Below, in pieces: positions 41,445 through 64,000 of a DNA stretch of 64,000 nucleotides (positions are counted from its first letter, which is position 1; every line of letters starts with the position of its first letter). The notes below the pieces were generated by a model. The model did not search any database, was not told the DNA's origin, and saw only the letters and a list, made by a program, of their open reading frames with translations. The stretch covers positions 1-64,000 of the forward strand of contig JBBJNV010000015.1 of assembly GCA_037721215.1 (NCBI GenBank), read 5' to 3'. A program made the translations under genes and the position numbers. Source of the DNA: Gemmatimonadaceae bacterium (GTDB taxonomy: Bacteria > Gemmatimonadota > Gemmatimonadetes > Gemmatimonadales > Gemmatimonadaceae).

Positions 41445-41762
41445 TTCTCCTCCGAAGGGTGGTTGGCAATCAGAAATCTGGATTGCAAGACTGAGGGAAG
41501 TGCAACCTGCGTACCACTCCCAGACCGCCAGGGCTTGGTGCCCGCTGTGGGTACCATACCGCTCAATAGCGCGTCCCGCAACCCTGGAGAGCAATACGGG
41601 GTTGTGAGCCCGGATGTTGCAAATCGCCCGCGCCTCGCCGCGCGCGGTTCTGCGCTTGCCGCTTCCCCAGGCTCTGCGGTAACTTGGTTCACTCAAACCC
41701 AATTACAAGCGAGATCATTCCTTGATTCCTTCTTGCCCGCCACAGGCGGGGAGTGCGCGTTA
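41445..41762. other. Divergent intergenic region before PP2C gene
   Basis: This 318-base stretch lies between the divergent GlsB-like and phosphatase genes and must hold both promoters. I see no strong -35/-10 pair. An open frame runs through it in the phosphatase frame, but its translation looks random. The only clear structure is the hairpin at 41736-41750. Confidence 0.4.
41736..41753 (+). promoter_or_regulatory. Hairpin overlapping the ribosome site of the PP2C gene
   Basis: CCCGCC (41736-41741) pairs with GGCGGG (41745-41750) across an ACA loop; the 3' arm runs into GAG (41751-41753), so the GGGGAG ribosome site (41748-41753) is half inside the stem. The gene starts at GTG 41763. Such a small stable stem could limit translation, though a function is inferred. 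Confidence 0.4.
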
Positions 41763-42557
41763 GTGCATCTGGCCGTTTCAGCACAAACAGATACGGGCAA
41801 ACTGCGAAAGGGGAACGAGGACAACCTCTACGTAAGCGCAAATGAGTATCGCGGCCTGTTCATAGTCGCCGATGGAATGGGTGGCCACGCCGCTGGTGAA
41901 GTGGCGAGCCAGATGGCCGTCGACTTCATCTCGAGCGAGCTCTCCGATCTCAATGATCTTGCGGCGGAGGGGTCGGGCCCCCGGTTATCCGACACGCTCC
42001 GGTCGGCCAATCGCAAGGTTTTCGAGCGAACCAGACGTGAGCTCGAGAAGACCGGGATGGGGAGCACTGCATCGGCGTTGCTTATCTCGGATTCGAGATA
42101 TCTGATTGGGCACGTAGGCGACTCGCGAATCTACCTGGTCCGCGATGGCGCGATGCGCCAGCTGACGCGCGATCATTCGCTGGTTCAGGAACAGGTCGAC
42201 GCAGGTCTGATCACTGCCGAGCAGGCCCGGCATCATCCTCAAAGCAACGTCATCACGTGCTGCATAGGGATGAGCAGCGACATCGAGCCGGACATACTGA
42301 CCGGCGAAACGCATGTCGGCGACGTTTTTCTATTGGCCAGTGACGGGCTAACCGGGATGGTGGAAGACCGCCGCCTCCAGCAGCTGCTTCAGTCGCGCGC
42401 TGAACCAGAGCGGATCGTGAGAGCGATGATCTCCGACGCGAACAACAATGGCGGCATCGACAACATTACCGCCATCGTGGTGAAGGTCATCACTGCGGAT
42501 ACTCGGTTTGTTACAGGAGACGTCACACCGGTCCCCCAGGGCCGGGTGCATGGCTGA
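41763..42557 (+). CDS. PP2C-family Ser/Thr protein phosphatase
   Basis: The 264-residue phosphatase removes phosphate from Ser/Thr residues, likely opposing Hanks-type kinases such as that at 30226. PP2C motifs with metal-binding Asp residues are all visible: DTGKLRKGNEDNLYV, FIVADGMGGHAAGEVAS, GSTASALLISDSRYLIGHVGDSRIYLVRDG, LLASDGLTGMV and DNITAIVVKV. GTG 41763 gives the family-typical N-terminus HLAVSAQTDTGKLRKGNEDN. Its stop overlaps the start of a 66-residue gene. Confidence 0.93.
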   Translation: MHLAVSAQTDTGKLRKGNEDNLYVSANEYRGLFIVADGMGGHAAGEVASQMAVDFISSELSDLNDLAAEGSGPRLSDTLRSANRKVFERTRRELEKTGMGSTASALLISDSRYLIGHVGDSRIYLVRDGAMRQLTRDHSLVQEQVDAGLITAEQARHHPQSNVITCCIGMSSDIEPDILTGETHVGDVFLLASDGLTGMVEDRRLQQLLQSRAEPERIVRAMISDANNNGGIDNITAIVVKVITADTRFVTGDVTPVPQGRVHG

Positions 42558-57086: not shown

Positions 57087-58001
57087 TCAGGTTTCGACAT
57101 ACCCGCGCAATCGCTCGAGCATTGCACGGTCGGTGACATCGGGCTCGACCTTCGGAGTTTCGATGACCTTGGCGATGCGCGCCAGATGCGCGTCGTTCAT
57201 GATTCGACGGAAGGCCGATTCTCCAATGGCTCCCTCTGCAATCAATTCGTGCCGATCGCGCCGCGAGCCCAGTGGAGTCTTCGAGTCGTTGAGATGCATC
57301 ATCCGGAGTCGCTCGTAGCCGACGACATTGCTGAATCGGGTCCATACGGCGTCGTAATCGTTGCTGATGTCGTACCCGGCGGCAAAGATGTGGCAGGTGT
57401 CCACGCAGACACCCACTCGTGACCGGTACTGGGCCGGGACCGCTTCGATGATTTCCGCCATCTCCTCGAAACTGGCGCCGAGAGCGGTGCCGCTCCCAGC
57501 GGTGGTTTCAAGTAGTACGATCGTCTGCCCCGGCACCCGCTCGAGGGCAACCCCGATTGCCTCGGCGTTCCGCGCGATTCCGCTCGCACGATCGTCCATG
57601 AAATTACCGGGATGAGAAACGAGATAGTTGAGCTTGAGCGCTTCGCATCGATTCAGCTCGGCGGCGAAGGAATCCAGCGATTTCGCGCGAAGGAGGGGGT
57701 CCGGTGATGCAAGGTTGATCAGATAGCTGTCGTGAGCGCACGTTTCGGCAACCAGGGTCTCGGCGAGCGCAGCGACGAAGTCCGTGCACTCACCGGGCTC
57801 ACAGTCCCGCTCGGCCCAGCGATTTGCCATCTTGGTGAAAACCTGCATCGCGGTGGCGCCAACGGCGCTAGCTCGCGGAGGTGCGAGGCGGGTTCCTCCA
57901 GCGATGGATATGTGAGCGCCAAGTGGTGCCGCCGCGGCCGTGGGATCGTCTGCCTTTGAGGTGCGCCCCGCTCTGCTACCGGCTTTTCTAGCGCGAGCCA
58001 C
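57087..58001 (-). CDS. nfo: Endonuclease IV
   Basis: Nfo is a zinc AP endonuclease for abasic sites in base excision repair. The 304-residue protein has LGAHISIAGGTRLAPPRASAVGATAMQVFTK, VSHPGNFMDDR, LLETTAGSGTALGASFEEMAEII, VCVDTCHIFAAGYDI and MHLNDSKTPLGSRRDRHELIAEGAIG, covering all zinc sites. Start: GTG 58001 lies 14 bases inside the end of the EnvC-like gene; an ATG at 58079 would add 26 residues that are only shadow. The N-terminal 30 residues are basic and Ala-rich. Confidence 0.94.
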   Translation of the reverse strand: MARARKAGSRAGRTSKADDPTAAAAPLGAHISIAGGTRLAPPRASAVGATAMQVFTKMANRWAERDCEPGECTDFVAALAETLVAETCAHDSYLINLASPDPLLRAKSLDSFAAELNRCEALKLNYLVSHPGNFMDDRASGIARNAEAIGVALERVPGQTIVLLETTAGSGTALGASFEEMAEIIEAVPAQYRSRVGVCVDTCHIFAAGYDISNDYDAVWTRFSNVVGYERLRMMHLNDSKTPLGSRRDRHELIAEGAIGESAFRRIMNDAHLARIAKVIETPKVEPDVTDRAMLERLRGYVET

Positions 58002-59190
58002 GCAACCAGGTAAGCGGATCGACCGCCGGTCCCCCGCGCCGGATTTCGAAGTGCAGATGTGGCGGGAGAGACGGATCATTGGCGCCTATCGTTCCGAGAA
58101 TCTGCCCCTTGGCAATGCGTGCTCCCTTGCTGACCGCCATCCGGTTGAGCGAGCCGTAAACGGAGTAATCGCCCCCGCCATGCTCGAGGATGACCGTGTT
58201 CCCGTATGTTCCCATGACATCGGCAAGCACTACCTCCCCACTCGAAACGGATTTTACTTCCGTGCCCGTGCCCGCGGCGATGCCGATTCCATTCCACCGC
58301 GTTGTCGTGTTGTTCGCATTGACGACTCTCCCAAATCGATAGATGATCGAGCCTTCGAGCGGCCAGTCGAGACGACCCAGATCACTGGTTCGGATGGTGC
58401 TTGGAGCCGATGGCCTGGCATTCGGGCGCGATGCCGCGCGTCGGCGCGCCGCCTCGAAGCTGGCGATAACACTATTCAGTCGGGCCTCGCTGCGCGCGAG
58501 TTGGGCGAGGCGGCCCTTGGCTTTTTTCGCATCCTGCCTAACGCGCACGAGGCTTCTTTCGCGTGAGGTTTCCAATATTTCGAGACGCTCGGCCTCACGT
58601 GATTTTTCGCCCCGGTTCTGCGCGACTCCACTCTGAAGTGAAATGAGCTGGCGGCGCTGTCCGATGATCATCGTTCTCAGCTGATCGACTCGGCGCACCA
58701 CCGCGCGATCGCGTTGTGCCAGGATATGCAGATACTTGTACCGCGCCACGAGATCGCCAAACGTTTTCGCCGAGAGCATCACCTCGAATGTAAAAAGCGG
58801 TCCGCGTTTGTAGATCTCCACGAGGCGTTTCTGGAGCACGGCACGCTTGAGCTGAACCTCGTCCTGCGCGCGAACAAGGTTCGCCGTCGTATTCTCCACT
58901 TCCCCATTCAGAGTGGTGAGCTGCTGATCGAGGGAACGGACGACTCGCACGGTGGCATTGTGCTGCCGATTGATGTTATCCACCTCTTCCGAGATATCGT
59001 GGGCTCTCGTCTGAAGACCCTTCATCCGGCGCTGCAGCTCGTCGCGCTCCCGCTTGATGCGCGCAAGCTCCTGTTGCTGAGTCCGGATTCTGGCATCACC
59101 CGACTCTTGAGCCGCCAGCGCCGCTCCGGCGAATAACATCATGCCGAGAACGAGCGCGCCGGATTTCAGATTCGGCGTAGGTGACTCCAT
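57988..59190 (-). CDS. EnvC-like murein hydrolase activator (degenerate LytM)
   Basis: The 400-residue protein has a signal peptide (SGALVLGMMLFAGAALA), then a long coiled coil (about residues 30-260) and a C-terminal LytM/M23 domain. Key metal positions are lost: RWNGIGIAAGTGTEV stands where active enzymes have His-x-Gly-x-Asp, and YSVYGSLNR replaces the Tyr-x-His pair, matching E. coli EnvC; only the final PHLHFEIRRGG is kept. So it should activate amidases rather than cut itself. It follows ftsX with a 25-base overlap at ATG 59190, as expected for an FtsEX-controlled activator. Confidence 0.9.
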   Translation of the reverse strand: MESPTPNLKSGALVLGMMLFAGAALAAQESGDARIRTQQQELARIKRERDELQRRMKGLQTRAHDISEEVDNINRQHNATVRVVRSLDQQLTTLNGEVENTTANLVRAQDEVQLKRAVLQKRLVEIYKRGPLFTFEVMLSAKTFGDLVARYKYLHILAQRDRAVVRRVDQLRTMIIGQRRQLISLQSGVAQNRGEKSREAERLEILETSRERSLVRVRQDAKKAKGRLAQLARSEARLNSVIASFEAARRRAASRPNARPSAPSTIRTSDLGRLDWPLEGSIIYRFGRVVNANNTTTRWNGIGIAAGTGTEVKSVSSGEVVLADVMGTYGNTVILEHGGGDYSVYGSLNRMAVSKGARIAKGQILGTIGANDPSLPPHLHFEIRRGGPAVDPLTWLRGSR

Positions 59191-60011
59191 ACAGAAGTTG
59201 CACTTCCCGCAACACCGATCAACGCGCCGCTCAGGATTCCGAGCAGCACAAGGCGTATATCGAAGAAGACAAGCTCCATGAAGCGCTGGTCGATCGCTCG
59301 ATATGCTAGCCACGTAAGCAACAGCGCGAGCAGACCCCCCACAATTCCCTTGGCGAACCCGTCGATCAGAAAGGGTGCCCGTATGAACGAGTCCGTGGCT
59401 CCCACCAATCGCATAATGGAGATCTCCCGCTCGCGCGCCAGAACTGAAACACGGATTGTCGCGCCGATGATGATGATCGAGACTGCCGCGAACGCCAGGC
59501 CCAGGCCCAGCCCCGTGCCAGCGGCGATAGTGCGAAGCTGATGCAGCTTCTCCACCCATTCCTCTCCGTATCGCACGTCGTCCACGAACTGATACGATTT
59601 GACGCGTTCCGCTACCTCCCTGACTGTGGCAGGGTCGCGCAGACCTGCGCGGAGATGCACGTCCAGAGATGCGGGAAGCATTGCTTCCTCGAACACGTCG
59701 GTGAACTCGCCGAGGTCTTCTCGCGCGCGTGCAAGTGCACCTTCCTGAGTGACATACTCTACTTTCGCCACCTCGGGAAATGCACGGATGTCGCCCATCG
59801 CAGTCGCGATGGCATCCGCTGGAGTGCCATCAGAAACAAATGCGCGAACCTCTACACGTTCCTCCACTCCGCGTAAGGCGTGACGGATATTGAGCGCGAC
59901 GAGTGCGAAAAGTCCGAACGCAAACAGAGAGAAGGCGATCGTTGTGACGCCGAGCAGGCTCAGCAATGGAGCCCGGCGCGATGCATTGACGGCTTCGCGA
60001 ACCGCCAGCAC
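59166..60011 (-). CDS. ftsX: Cell division ABC transporter permease FtsX
   Basis: FtsX with FtsE controls peptidoglycan hydrolases at the septum. The 281-residue protein has the first membrane helix (LLGVTTIAFSLFAFGLFALVALNI), an extracellular loop (about residues 45-155, including EEAMLPASLDVHLRAGL), and three helices at the end (GLGLGLAFAAVSIIIIGATIRVSV, IVGGLLALLLTWLAY, LGILSGALIGVAGS). AREREISIMRLVGATDSFIRAPFLIDG is the family signature. Start GTG 60011 follows the ftsE stop directly. Confidence 0.95.
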   Translation of the reverse strand: MLAVREAVNASRRAPLLSLLGVTTIAFSLFAFGLFALVALNIRHALRGVEERVEVRAFVSDGTPADAIATAMGDIRAFPEVAKVEYVTQEGALARAREDLGEFTDVFEEAMLPASLDVHLRAGLRDPATVREVAERVKSYQFVDDVRYGEEWVEKLHQLRTIAAGTGLGLGLAFAAVSIIIIGATIRVSVLAREREISIMRLVGATDSFIRAPFLIDGFAKGIVGGLLALLLTWLAYRAIDQRFMELVFFDIRLVLLGILSGALIGVAGSATSVWSHLRRI

Positions 60012-60779
60012 TTACTGTCTTGCCGCGGGAAGTGGCGGCCAGTTGCCTTCGTTCGGACCGCCGATGGCAGGCTGCCCAAGTAGCGGCGTGTACCGCGTTT
60101 CCGGCGGCGGGGTTTCCGCGGAATCGAAGACTACTCTTCCGTGATTCAACTCAATCGTTCGGCCGCCCTCGGCTTTTCGCACCATTTCGAGATCGTGAGT
60201 TGCCATGATTACCGAGGTGCCGGTGGCGTTGATCTCGCGTAGAAGCTGAAAAACGCTTCGGGTTGCACGCTCGTCGAGGTTACCCGTTGGCTCGTCAGCA
60301 AGAAGAAAATAGGGATCGTTGACGAGTGCGCGGGCGATCGCCACGCGCTGCTGCTCGCCGCCGGAAAGCTGGCGGGGACGTTGAGTCGCCTTGGACGACA
60401 GACCAACCTGCGTCAGCACCCTTCCCACGCGCGCCGGGATAGTCGACGGTGATGCACCGGTTACTTCAAGCGCAAACGCCACGTTCTGCTCGGCAGTCCT
60501 GTCTTCCAGCAGCCGAAAATCCTGGAAGATGATTCCAAGCTTCCGGCGCAGTTGCGAGATCTCGGTGCGCCGTGCGGTGTTGCCATGGACCTCGTTGACC
60601 CAGACGTCGCCGTGACTTGGCTTTTCCTCCATGTACAGCAGCTTGAGGATGGTTGTCTTTCCCGAGCCGCTGGGCCCGATGAGAAATACGAACTCTCCGC
60701 GCCGTACCTGGAAATTGACGTGGCTGAGCGCGACACGCGTGTGCGTGTACTCCTTGGCGACGTCTTCCAGTCTTATCAT
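60012..60779 (-). CDS. ftsE: Cell division ATP-binding protein FtsE
   Basis: The 255-residue ATPase drives FtsX. It has Walker A VFLIGPSGSGKTTILKLLYMEE, the FtsE-typical Q-loop region LGIIFQDFRLLEDRTAEQNVAFAL, signature QLSGGEQQRVAIARALVNDP and Walker B FLLADEPTGNLDERATRSVFQLLREI, followed by switch His in MATHDLEMVRK. A C-terminal tail of about 35 residues is extra. It starts 8 bases after the sulfur-amino-acid enzyme gene, so the division genes may be read through from the regulatory chain upstream. Confidence 0.96.
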   Translation of the reverse strand: MIRLEDVAKEYTHTRVALSHVNFQVRRGEFVFLIGPSGSGKTTILKLLYMEEKPSHGDVWVNEVHGNTARRTEISQLRRKLGIIFQDFRLLEDRTAEQNVAFALEVTGASPSTIPARVGRVLTQVGLSSKATQRPRQLSGGEQQRVAIARALVNDPYFLLADEPTGNLDERATRSVFQLLREINATGTSVIMATHDLEMVRKAEGGRTIELNHGRVVFDSAETPPPETRYTPLLGQPAIGGPNEGNWPPLPAARQ

Positions 60780-60787
60780 TATCTCTG

Positions 60788-61957
60788 CTACCTCTTAAGC
60801 GCCTGTTCGATATCGGCGATGATGTCATCCGCATTCTCGATGCCGATGCTGAGCCTCAGAAATCCATCCGGGATGCCGATGGCGGCGCGTTCCTCGCTCG
60901 TCATGTGGGCATGCGAGCTGTAACGCGGCTCACTCACAAGCGTGTCCACGCCGCCGAGGCTCGCGGCGTAGGTGATCATTTTTACGCTGCGAACGAAGCT
61001 GTCGGCCGCAGCGGCACCGCCGCTCAGCTCGATTGCCAACAGACCCCCGAATCCGTCCAGCATTTTTTTCGCGACACCGTGGTCCGGATGGGCGGGCAGT
61101 CCCGCGTAATGCACCTTGCTGATCTCCGGTCGCGCGGACGACCACTGCGCGACGCGCATTGCATTCTCGTTCGAGCGCCTGACGCGGACATCCAGCGTCT
61201 TGAGGCCGCGCTCGAGCAGCCAGCAGGCGAATGGGTCAGGCGCCTGGCCCCATACGATCATCTTGCGCCGGACTTCGTCTATATAGGACGCGGTGCCGGC
61301 GACGACGCCACACAGAATGTCGTGATGCCCATTGAGATATTTGGTAGCAGAATGAATGACGACCTCGGCGCCGTGCTCCATTGGCCGGGCGTTGATCGGG
61401 CTCGCGAGGGTGGAATCCACAACAAGTGCGACACCCTTGAGCTTTGCAAGGATTGCTGGCTGTGTAAGATCCAGCACACGACCTGTCGGGTTTACCGGAG
61501 ATTCCACGAAAATCGCCCGCGTGTTCTGCCGGATGGTGTTTCGCCAGACCCGGCGCTCGTCGGGGTCCGCGAAGCTGACCTCGATGCCCATGGACGCAAA
61601 CTCTTCCGTAAACAGCCGCCTGGTACCGCCGTAAATCCACGCGCTCGAGAGCAGGTGATCACCAGGCCGCAGGAGTGCCAGCATCGCGCAGGCGGTTGCT
61701 CCCATACCGCTCGACAAAACCAGCGCCGCTTCTGCCCCTTCCAGCATTGCGATCCGCTTCTGAACGACTGTTTCGTTGGGCGTATTACCGTATCGCGTGT
61801 AAAGCAGCCCGTCAGCAGTACCAAAAGGCTGGGCGTAGTTGACCGACTGGATGAGTGGCTGTGCAACAGGATCACCCGCAGCCCGGTGTTCCGATCCACC
61901 ATGCACCGCAATCGTGGAGCGTCCTCGCACGGGAGGCTTGGCCCTGGGCGCCATCAC
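60788..61957 (-). CDS. PLP-dependent Cys/Met metabolism enzyme
   Basis: The 389-residue protein is of the trans-sulfuration family (cystathionine synthase, cystathionine lyase or methionine gamma-lyase). STIAVHGGSEHRAAGDPVAQPLIQSVNYAQP is the N-terminus, YTRYGNTPNETVVQKRIAMLEGAEAALVLSSGMGATA the active-site entry, and the PLP Lys is in VVIHSATKYLNGHHDI. YAASLGGVDTLVSEPRYSSHAHM and GFLRLSIGIENADDIIADI end the protein. Which reaction it does cannot be told. GTG 61957 (or ATG 61954) overlaps the upstream gene by 4 bases. It is the last gene of the overlapping chain before ftsE. Confidence 0.92.
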   Translation of the reverse strand: MMAPRAKPPVRGRSTIAVHGGSEHRAAGDPVAQPLIQSVNYAQPFGTADGLLYTRYGNTPNETVVQKRIAMLEGAEAALVLSSGMGATACAMLALLRPGDHLLSSAWIYGGTRRLFTEEFASMGIEVSFADPDERRVWRNTIRQNTRAIFVESPVNPTGRVLDLTQPAILAKLKGVALVVDSTLASPINARPMEHGAEVVIHSATKYLNGHHDILCGVVAGTASYIDEVRRKMIVWGQAPDPFACWLLERGLKTLDVRVRRSNENAMRVAQWSSARPEISKVHYAGLPAHPDHGVAKKMLDGFGGLLAIELSGGAAAADSFVRSVKMITYAASLGGVDTLVSEPRYSSHAHMTSEERAAIGIPDGFLRLSIGIENADDIIADIEQALKR

Positions 61958-62292
61958 CCTACCTGGCGATTGTTCGGGGTATCGAGATCGGGTTTGATCA
62001 CGGTCACGGACTCCGATACTGCGACCCCGGCGATGTCGCGCAAAATGGCGCTGCCCTCTGCAATCGTGTCATCAATAATCAGGATCGCAAGGTCCTGTCG
62101 TCGCGGGCCGACCACCCACACCAGCTCGCCGTTGTCGATGAGACGAACTCTCGCCTCCGAAGCTCGCAGGCGAATCATCGGACCACGCTCGGCATCGCCC
62201 CGACAGGTGGATATGTATTCGACGACGTTCAGGCTGGGCCGATAGTTCCTGCCCATGCTGATCCGCACATCCGGAAGCCGAAGGTGCTTCAC
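61954..62292 (-). CDS. Unknown 112-residue protein in the STAS/ATPase chain
   Basis: I do not recognise this protein. From GTG 62292 it reads KHLRLPDVRISMGRNYRPS, then VVEYISTCRGDAERGPMIRLRASEARVRLIDNGELVWVVGPRRQDLAILIIDDTIAEGSAILRDIAG, which looks like a small beta-rich fold. It has no membrane segment. Its start overlaps the STAS/winged-helix gene and its stop overlaps the PLP enzyme gene, each by 4 bases, so it is translated with them. The coding frame is well supported by the overlaps and by codon bias. Confidence 0.75.
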   Translation of the reverse strand: MKHLRLPDVRISMGRNYRPSLNVVEYISTCRGDAERGPMIRLRASEARVRLIDNGELVWVVGPRRQDLAILIIDDTIAEGSAILRDIAGVAVSESVTVIKPDLDTPNNRQVG

Positions 62293-62921
62293 GAAACTTC
62301 CATCCCCCGACCGGGGGTGCCGGCAGCCGTCGCATTGAACATGGCTGCCGGAGGAACACGACCGGCGTATCCGCTTCGGATTGCGATGTACCCGCTCTCC
62401 TGCCGGATCACCAGGCGGCGCTGCCAGAGCGTCTCCAGCATCCGGGCGGCAAGCTCGTGCGGCATGCCGGTGGCATCCGCGACGTCGGATGCGTGAGCGA
62501 TGCCGAGTCTTCCGATCGTGTCCCACGCTCGCCGCTGGTCACCGTCGACGTTACCGACGAGCTGCACCACGCCGCCTTCCAGCTGCGTCACCAGCGCCAG
62601 GTCGTGACGTTCGAGAACTGCCTCGATTGCATCCATGTGCGACTCGCTCATCCCGTAAAACACGAAATACACTTCGCGGCGCGGAAGGTCCAGGCTTACA
62701 TACTGAAGCAGCAGTTTCGCTACGATCTCATCTGCGCATGAGAAATCGAGAAGGCCCACGTGAGAAAAATCGAGGACAGCCAGCGCCTTGTCGCCGATTT
62801 CGTCCAGATGGTGTTCGATACCGATTCTGACGGCAGCCCCGGTGGGCCGTGTAACGAGGTTCGAATAGAGATCGCAGACGCTTCGCCTGAGAACTGTGCT
62901 GACATCGATGTGGCTGATCAA
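62289..62921 (-). CDS. STAS-like protein with winged-helix C-terminus
   Basis: The 210-residue protein has an N-terminal STAS-like domain: AVLDFSHVGLLDFSCADEIVAKLLLQYV has the strand-helix pattern of anti-sigma antagonist or DUF4325 proteins. The C-terminal half (about residues 130-190) is a winged-helix domain with AWDTIGRLGIAHASDVADATGMPHELAARMLETLWQRRLVIRQESGYIAI. The candidate phosphorylation Ser is in DFSHVG or LLDFSCAD. A TTG start at 62921 overlaps the stop of the STAS/ATPase gene. It pairs naturally with that neighbour as a partner-switch module that ends in DNA binding. Confidence 0.8.
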   Translation of the reverse strand: MISHIDVSTVLRRSVCDLYSNLVTRPTGAAVRIGIEHHLDEIGDKALAVLDFSHVGLLDFSCADEIVAKLLLQYVSLDLPRREVYFVFYGMSESHMDAIEAVLERHDLALVTQLEGGVVQLVGNVDGDQRRAWDTIGRLGIAHASDVADATGMPHELAARMLETLWQRRLVIRQESGYIAIRSGYAGRVPPAAMFNATAAGTPGRGMEVS

Positions 62922-63802
62922 GGCAGTCCTATCCTTTCAGGAATCGTAATCTGAACCTGGGCGCCGGGGAAAAATGGCAATCCTTCGCCAAGAGGCACAC
63001 CCTGGCCCCACTCTGGCACAATCGCGATGCGTGCCGTGCCGCTTCGCACGCTCATCATCCCGTCCCATTTGCCGGTGAACTTGCGAACGCCTGCCAGGCC
63101 CTGTCCCCGCCCTGGATCCCGAAACCGGGTGGCTCCCTTGATCACCGTCTCCTCGAGGGCCTTGCCGTCGTCCCATACGTCGCTGGCACGCGCACCCTGA
63201 GACTGTTCCAGCGATTTCCGAAATCCCATGCCTGCGTCGCAGACGGCGATCACTACGACCCATCTGCCCAGCCGTTGCTGAAACTTGTAGGCGTGTACGG
63301 AAACCCACCCTCCGTAACCGGCATGCTCGATGACGTTCTGGCAGATTTCCGACAGCACCATCGTAAACCGCATGGTGACACTCGCCTCAAGGTTCAATTT
63401 TTCCTGGAGGATTGCCTGGGCACGATGCTGAATGTTGTCGACTACGGTGTGAACGTCCTCGGTGCCGTTGATCGGCGTAACCTCGAGCAGCACACTGTTT
63501 TCAGATTTGCTTCGCCGCGGCACCCTTCCGGAAATTTCGTAGAGGGAATCTGCATAGGTGAAAAAGCTTGCTTTCGACCAGTAGGATGCCGTGTCCTCGG
63601 CTTCCGGAACCGTCAACCCCGGCCGTTCGAGACGCGTCTGGGCCAGCGAGAGCAGTGCAGTGAAGCCGAAAGGCGACGCCCAGCGTGTACGCCTTGCGTC
63701 GAGGAGGATTTTTTCTTCAGGAGGCAGCAGTGCTACCTGAGCGAAGATCTGTTCAAATGACTGGTCGTCGAGTGACGGGGGAACGTTGATAATGGTCGTC
63801 AC
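62918..63802 (-). CDS. STAS-like plus GHKL ATPase protein
   Basis: The 294-residue protein begins with a STAS-like domain (INVPPSLDDQSFEQIFAQVALLPPEEKILLDARRTRWASPFGFTALLSLAQ). The C-terminal half is a GHKL/HATPase_c domain with N box LSEICQNVIEHAGYGGW, G1 VCDAGMGFRKSLEQ and G2 DPGRGQGLAGVRKF. This is the fold of RsbW-like anti-sigma kinases, but fused to a STAS part. GTG 63802 overlaps the upstream kinase stop in a GTGA. Together with the next gene it looks like a phosphorylation switch; the target is unknown. Confidence 0.85.
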   Translation of the reverse strand: MTTIINVPPSLDDQSFEQIFAQVALLPPEEKILLDARRTRWASPFGFTALLSLAQTRLERPGLTVPEAEDTASYWSKASFFTYADSLYEISGRVPRRSKSENSVLLEVTPINGTEDVHTVVDNIQHRAQAILQEKLNLEASVTMRFTMVLSEICQNVIEHAGYGGWVSVHAYKFQQRLGRWVVVIAVCDAGMGFRKSLEQSQGARASDVWDDGKALEETVIKGATRFRDPGRGQGLAGVRKFTGKWDGMMSVRSGTARIAIVPEWGQGVPLGEGLPFFPGAQVQITIPERIGLP

Positions 63803-64000
63803 CTGATGCTCAGTTCTCCCCGGAGGTGTTGCGCGAGACCCGTGGCCCCGCGATGATCGACGTTACGCGCCGCGGCTGCCGACGCAGCGCCCATTGCGGC
63901 TTCGAGACTGTCGCCAGCCAGCATGCGCGAGAAATATGTCGCGCCCCACACGTCGCCGCACCCCGTTGGATCGCCGCCACCGAGATCGCGAGTGGGTGCC
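63799..64000 (-). CDS. PfkB-family carbohydrate/nucleoside kinase, C-terminal part
   Basis: Only the last 66 residues fall in the window; the gene continues past 64000. The signature GGGDPTGCGDVWGATYF is the second PfkB motif (Asp-Thr/Pro-x-Gly-x-Gly-Asp) with the catalytic Asp, and it is followed by LEAAMGAASAAAARNVDHRGATGLAQHL, the typical family end. Substrate cannot be told. The stop overlaps the GTG of the STAS/ATPase gene by 4 bases, making it the first visible member of the overlapping chain. Confidence 0.8.
   Translation of the reverse strand, partial: APTRDLGGGDPTGCGDVWGATYFSRMLAGDSLEAAMGAASAAAARNVDHRGATGLAQHLRGELSIR

Follow-up and report, generated by a model that had tools for sequence, protein, structure and literature searches.

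The 64,000 nucleotides of Gemmatimonadaceae DNA analysed here (contig JBBJNV010000015.1, positions 1 to 64,000; hereafter the window) end in a chain of overlapping minus-strand genes, among them a GHKL ATPase with a STAS domain and a second STAS protein with a winged helix. A sequence-only reading of the window proposed that these two form a partner switch that acts on transcription directly, without a sigma factor, that is tied to metabolism, and that has no described counterpart. The question raised by this locus is whether the two proteins are such a switch, and on what it acts.

The gene block

The genes, in their order of transcription, are:

63799..64000, minus strand: G, PfkB-family kinase, 3′ part (PF00294, 9.4e-8, residues 180-312)
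62918..63802, minus strand: F, predicted STAS-GHKL protein kinase of 294 aa, CapK-like, with a SpoIIAB-like kinase domain (HATPase_c, 2.4e-7)
62289..62921, minus strand: E, STAS-winged-helix protein of 210 aa, CapS-like (AF2 fold; CapS profile match)
61954..62292, minus strand: D, double-psi-barrel-like protein of 112 aa (Molydop_binding)
60788..61957, minus strand: C, PLP enzyme of the Cys/Met metabolism family (Cys_Met_Meta_PP, 2.5e-121)
60012..60779, minus strand: FtsE, downstream neighbour (TIGR02673, 277.8 bits, above the cut-off)
59166..60011, minus strand: FtsX-like permease, downstream neighbour (281-aa ORF adjoining FtsE)

With the contig beyond the window included, the order of the block is LepA, a glycosyltransferase-9-like gene, ROK kinase, PfkB, F, E, D, C, FtsE and FtsX. 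The five overlapping genes that had been read from the sequence are all present, with 4-bp overlaps measured for D/C (61954-61957), E/D (62289-62292), F/E (62918-62921) and PfkB/F (63799-63802). The PfkB gene is merely cut by the window end and continues to contig position about 64776 (L009:7800-8777). FtsE follows C in most loci of families f1-f3, and the FtsE-FtsX order is kept in the loci of these families. An endonuclease-IV-like gene, named by reading its sequence, is located downstream of the FtsEX block at 57087-58079 on the minus strand.

The kinase and its STAS partner

The AF2 model of F has a pLDDT of 90.1. The best solved-structure match of its GHKL part is SpoIIAB (Z 13.9 over 135 residues, rmsd 2.7), and histidine kinases score a Z of at most 9.8. 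The reading of RsbW-like N, G1 and G2 boxes in this protein was borne out by the HATPase_c match and by the boxes themselves, which are invariant in 41 sequences (N box E152/Q155/N156/H160; G1 D189-G191-G193; G2 R232-G233-G235). An E-x-x-x-N in the N box is typical of GHKL serine kinases, e.g., SpoIIAB. A PADLOC match of F to DrmA (7.7e-9) was rejected, as it spans only the shared GHKL fold. The N-terminal STAS domain is recognized as STAS_2 in 14/40 members (best 1.2e-5), and its fold resembles that of TM1442, an anti-sigma antagonist (Z 9.8). The alignment has P-[YFNA]-G in place of the phosphosite serine of this domain, and thus the STAS domain of F is probably structural or sensory.

E was modelled with a pLDDT of 89.8, and it does combine a STAS part with a DNA-binding-type end, as had been claimed: the STAS domain resembles RsbR/RsbS and the winged helix (wHTH) resembles MarR folds, with Z about 9.5. 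Ser61 lies within a D-x-S-C-A-D-E motif at the position of the SpoIIAA/CapS phosphosite and is invariant (41/41). A sequence profile of E detects both domains of CapS in the crystal structures 9z71 (3.3e-9) and 9z72 (1.5e-7). When the E model was searched with Foldseek, no match over the whole length was confident; the CapS structures were reached by sequence profile only. The STAS-like family DUF4325 (PF14213) is related in part. At 24.7 bits in Brocadia and 34.4 bits in a Spirochaete, orthologues of E exceed its 23-bit cut-off, but E of the window falls below it, with no match at E <= 1, and matches among the E proteins of the class are weak (5/35, best E 0.0089).

Homology to CapK and CapS

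CapK and CapS are controllers of immune operons in Enterobacter and Vibrio (Chambers et al., EMBO J, June 2026; PDB 9z71-9z73; PMC13373217). CapK is activated by ssDNA and phosphorylates Ser54 of CapS, a STAS-wHTH repressor; the CapS dimer then comes apart and the immune operon is derepressed, so that the pair acts on transcription directly, without a sigma factor (PMC13373217). By sequence, F and E are homologues of CapK and CapS, and the claim that no system of this composition had been described does not hold. A literature search for a STAS plus winged-helix partner switch under that description found none; CapKS is the match.

The likeness includes gene order and residues. In both cases a STAS-GHKL gene is followed by a STAS-wHTH gene, and the homology of E extends across both CapS domains. 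We aligned F and E with Enterobacter CapK (WP_001567866.1) and CapS (WP_001567865.1), at about 20% identity. CapK E214, N218 and H222 are invariant in F (E214/N218 41/41), as are CapS S54, which corresponds to Ser61, and E58 in E. A kinase-STAS switch formed by F and E is well supported. There are also differences. F starts at the STAS domain and does not have the N-terminal HTH of CapK, the deletion of which had no effect (PMC13373217). The aromatic residue that senses ssDNA, W68 in CapK and F54 in VapK (PMC13373217), falls in a column that in F is mostly Ser/Thr/Gln/Val, with Tyr in 2/41, in an alignment of about 20% identity; the residues give no support to an ssDNA input mode as in CapK. 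The DNA contacts of CapS (N145, K151 and the wing G169-G170) correspond to variable or gapped columns in the E proteins of Gemmatimonadota. Lastly, CapK/CapS lie beside an immune operon in 348/443 published cases (PMC13373217), but the neighbours of F and E are LepA, ROK, PfkB, the PLP enzyme and FtsEX, with no immune cargo, in a core chromosomal operon and not in mobile loci.

Conservation in Gemmatimonadota

F was found in 93/94 near-complete genomes of the nearest relatives, in 144/148 near-complete genomes of the class, as a single copy, and in 275/287 of the phylum sample, where there is nearly always one full-length copy. No near-complete genome that lacks F has a full E, apart from two (G164 and G278) in which E is at a contig end and F is off the edge. 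Three F-less genomes (G107, G218 and G220) have partial matches only, of about 24-26 bits. Second, more distant F-like matches exist in some Gemmatimonadota (G077:C1:897784-898512, G126:C35:16952-17338) and are perhaps separate CapK-like copies.

Gene order was checked for separation in close relatives and none was found: F and E are adjacent in 40/41 loci (families f1-f9), mostly with a 4-bp overlap. PfkB is upstream of F in 38/41 loci; in L072, L073 and L077, F has no PfkB gene next to it. The order LepA-ROK-PfkB-F-E is kept across the class, and its conservation is far beyond chance.

The genes downstream of E are less constant. D, which had been called a protein of unknown kind, is a real gene whose Molydop_binding domain (double-psi barrel) was matched in 9/9 members (best 3.1e-7). 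D is restricted to family f1 in our sample and absent from sampled f2-f9. In nearly all f1-f3 loci, and in part of f7 and f8, C is the gene after E or D; other families have in its place a gene resembling penicillin amidase, one resembling Mrp, or a different gene (names by sequence reading). Since D occurs only in f1 and the C position is variable, the unit is F plus E, with PfkB as the usual companion. The proposed tie to metabolism is proximity alone, with C non-adjacent in several families. The exact reaction of C cannot be named from the Cys_Met_Meta_PP match, and no NCBIfam equivalog was above cut-off.

F and E in other phyla

In a genome scan, F also turned up in Spirochaetota, Nitrospirota, Planctomycetota (Brocadiales and others), Nitrospinota and delta-proteobacterial MAGs, and E is present in 32/40 genomes of other phyla that have F. 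Among 78 Nitrospirota genomes, 11 have both, two have E only, one has F only and 64 have neither (Fisher 1.2e-10, relatedness ignored). E directly follows F in Spirochaetes and is usually 0.6-5.5 kb downstream of F in Nitrospirota and relatives. F/E-type pairs are also located on a Cytobacillus plasmid and on Nostoc plasmids, one of which has GHKL and DUF4325 fused.

In five loci of Nitrospirota and relatives (L117, L130, L138, L139 and L163), restriction-modification genes with strong PADLOC scores lie between F and E. Orthologues of the pair in Nitrospirota, Brocadiales and others often flank such genes, and the kinase and the repressor are placed as if bracketing a cargo site. A small gene of about 80-95 aa with the pattern AKYLVV.A..G...EVNHF.S...A...F.EI recurs in restriction-modification-bearing loci, mostly just upstream of E (L138:11598-11876, L139:10393-10632, L141:9120-9392, L162:9219-9500, L117:5831-6109). 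In one Nitrospirota locus a gene resembling the endonuclease-IV-like gene of the window sits between F and E (L160:8239-9141, minus strand), which may be coincidence.

In a quick kinase tree, a single clade (SH-aLRT 100) unites the 41 sequences of the window's class with L155, the one locus labelled Gemmatimonadota in the genome scan, which places the class in that phylum; branching within this clade tracks the families. The Nitrospirota-like group mixes phyla, and the positions of the long-branched CapK, Cytobacillus and Nostoc-fusion sequences are uncertain. No order of the core pair versus the defence controller could be derived from this tree.

Winged-helix decay and the output of the proposed switch

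The two domains of E are conserved to different degrees. In the class, mean pairwise identity is 46% in the STAS domain vs. 26% in the wHTH, and in the Nitrospirota group it is 76% vs. 67%. The median net charge of the wHTH is −1 in the window's class and +6 in the Nitrospirota group. In all three genomes of one genus (g30), E is 121 aa long and stops after the STAS domain, with the wHTH absent, and in a group of f2 loci (L050, L055, L178, L179, L181-L184) E is 143-152 aa long and the wHTH is truncated. F and the SCADE motif are retained in these g30 and f2 loci.

We consider it probable that F/E is a phospho-switch related to CapK/CapS and a core module, with its output via the STAS domain of E and DNA binding that is lineage-specific at best. 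F would be a serine kinase whose own STAS domain could not be phosphorylated at the usual site. It would bind the STAS domain of E and phosphorylate Ser61, and this would break the E dimer or a contact of E with a partner. The output would be either DNA binding, perhaps kept in some species, or a VapS-like protein partner; the constant part would go through the E STAS domain, with DNA binding by the wHTH lineage-specific at best. In this class F/E would be a single-copy, vertically inherited core module of the LepA-ROK-PfkB-F-E operon that does not control immune genes. Gene order, co-loss, the conserved residues of the catalytic site and the phosphosite, and the homology to CapKS are observed; the phosphorylation, the dimer break and the identities of the output and the input signal are what we infer here. 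A stronger form is proposed tentatively, at somewhat under an even chance: Gemmatimonadota may have a core, vertically inherited switch akin to the kinase-repressor pair of mobile immune loci, in which the output that is conserved is a protein-protein interaction rather than DNA binding, and in which the repressor is losing its DNA-binding domain while the phosphosite and the kinase are invariant.

Such a switch connects a newly described regulator of phage defence with a gene pair that is core across a class of a little-studied phylum, and the module extends to Nitrospirota, Planctomycetota, Spirochaetota and Cyanobacteriota. E proteins with a full, a decayed or a missing winged helix are natural test cases for a change of output in STAS-kinase switches.

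E may alternatively act just as CapS does, binding DNA to repress its own operon (PfkB to FtsEX) until F relieves the repression upon DNA damage or another signal, with the operator and the contacts changed. The characterized homologues work in this way (PMC13373217), E holds a confident MarR-like fold, and orthologues of E in Nitrospirota, Brocadiales and others have a conserved, basic wHTH. Within the window's genus the wHTH has 59% identity, dN 0.32 and dS about 1.5, which indicates purifying selection and some remaining constraint; together with the confident fold, this suggests that DNA binding may persist in that genus. We find this reading unlikely. The CapS contacts are not retained, the charge is neutral, and the wHTH is absent or truncated in two lineages that keep F and the E STAS domain. 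A search of the regions upstream of F and E in Nitrospirota for a common operator gave no k-mer or dyad that stood out clearly from shuffled sequence, and CapS-type TTAA palindromes are rare in the Nitrospirota loci. The initial proposal of a partner switch acting directly on transcription therefore stands in part. The RsbW/SpoIIAB-like kinase, the STAS partner and the CapK/CapS precedent (PMC13373217) support the switch, and its descent makes direct control of transcription plausible; as the conserved output such control is not supported, and it is not conserved across the Gemmatimonadota class.

VapK/VapS/VapC offers a different precedent. VapK is a STAS-GHKL kinase without an HTH, like F, and the STAS domain of VapS binds a protein target, holding VapC (PMC13373217); some E proteins here likewise consist of a STAS domain only. 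E could then sequester or activate PfkB or the PLP enzyme, which we rate as rather unlikely. The frequent position of PfkB upstream of F fits a protein target, as does a MAG contig that joins the E STAS domain and the PLP enzyme in one reading frame, but PfkB is absent beside F in three loci, the PLP gene is non-adjacent in several families, and the MAG with that fusion is mixed and has a second, unfused copy. A Pfam scan of the operon proteins found no PIN domain as in the VapC toxin. Given the mixed MAG and its unfused copy, we rejected the E-PLP fusion as a firm feature; the fused contig (L187, G270:C137) and the contig of the same MAG with the genes separate (L186) possibly reflect a deletion or an assembly mixture.

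Improbable, in our estimate, is a classical RsbW-RsbV switch, with F as anti-sigma factor, E as anti-anti-sigma factor and the output through an unlinked sigma factor. F shares the GHKL serine-kinase fold with SpoIIAB and RsbW and is closest to the former, and E, like SpoIIAA and RsbV, is a STAS substrate candidate with a conserved serine at the matching place. Unlike those systems, F has a fused STAS domain and E has a wHTH, as in CapKS, no sigma factor or PP2C gene was recognized among the genes of the conserved operon, and searches of the window's own genome with PF14213 and SpoIIE found no partner phosphatase in that operon. A distinct RsbW-like gene, close to a SpoIIE-type PP2C gene, occurs in the genome as well. 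Unrelated genes can share a dense operon, so F and E might be housekeeping neighbours with no functional link; this is very improbable given their co-loss and their co-occurrence where unlinked, and no computed result favours it.

Phosphatase genes do exist elsewhere in the genome. A PP2C-type Ser/Thr phosphatase gene at 41463-42557 on the plus strand is unlinked to F/E. Together with the RsbW-like gene (G000:C9:121837-122142) and the SpoIIE-type gene (G000:C9:123168-123740), it is a possible source of a phosphatase for E.
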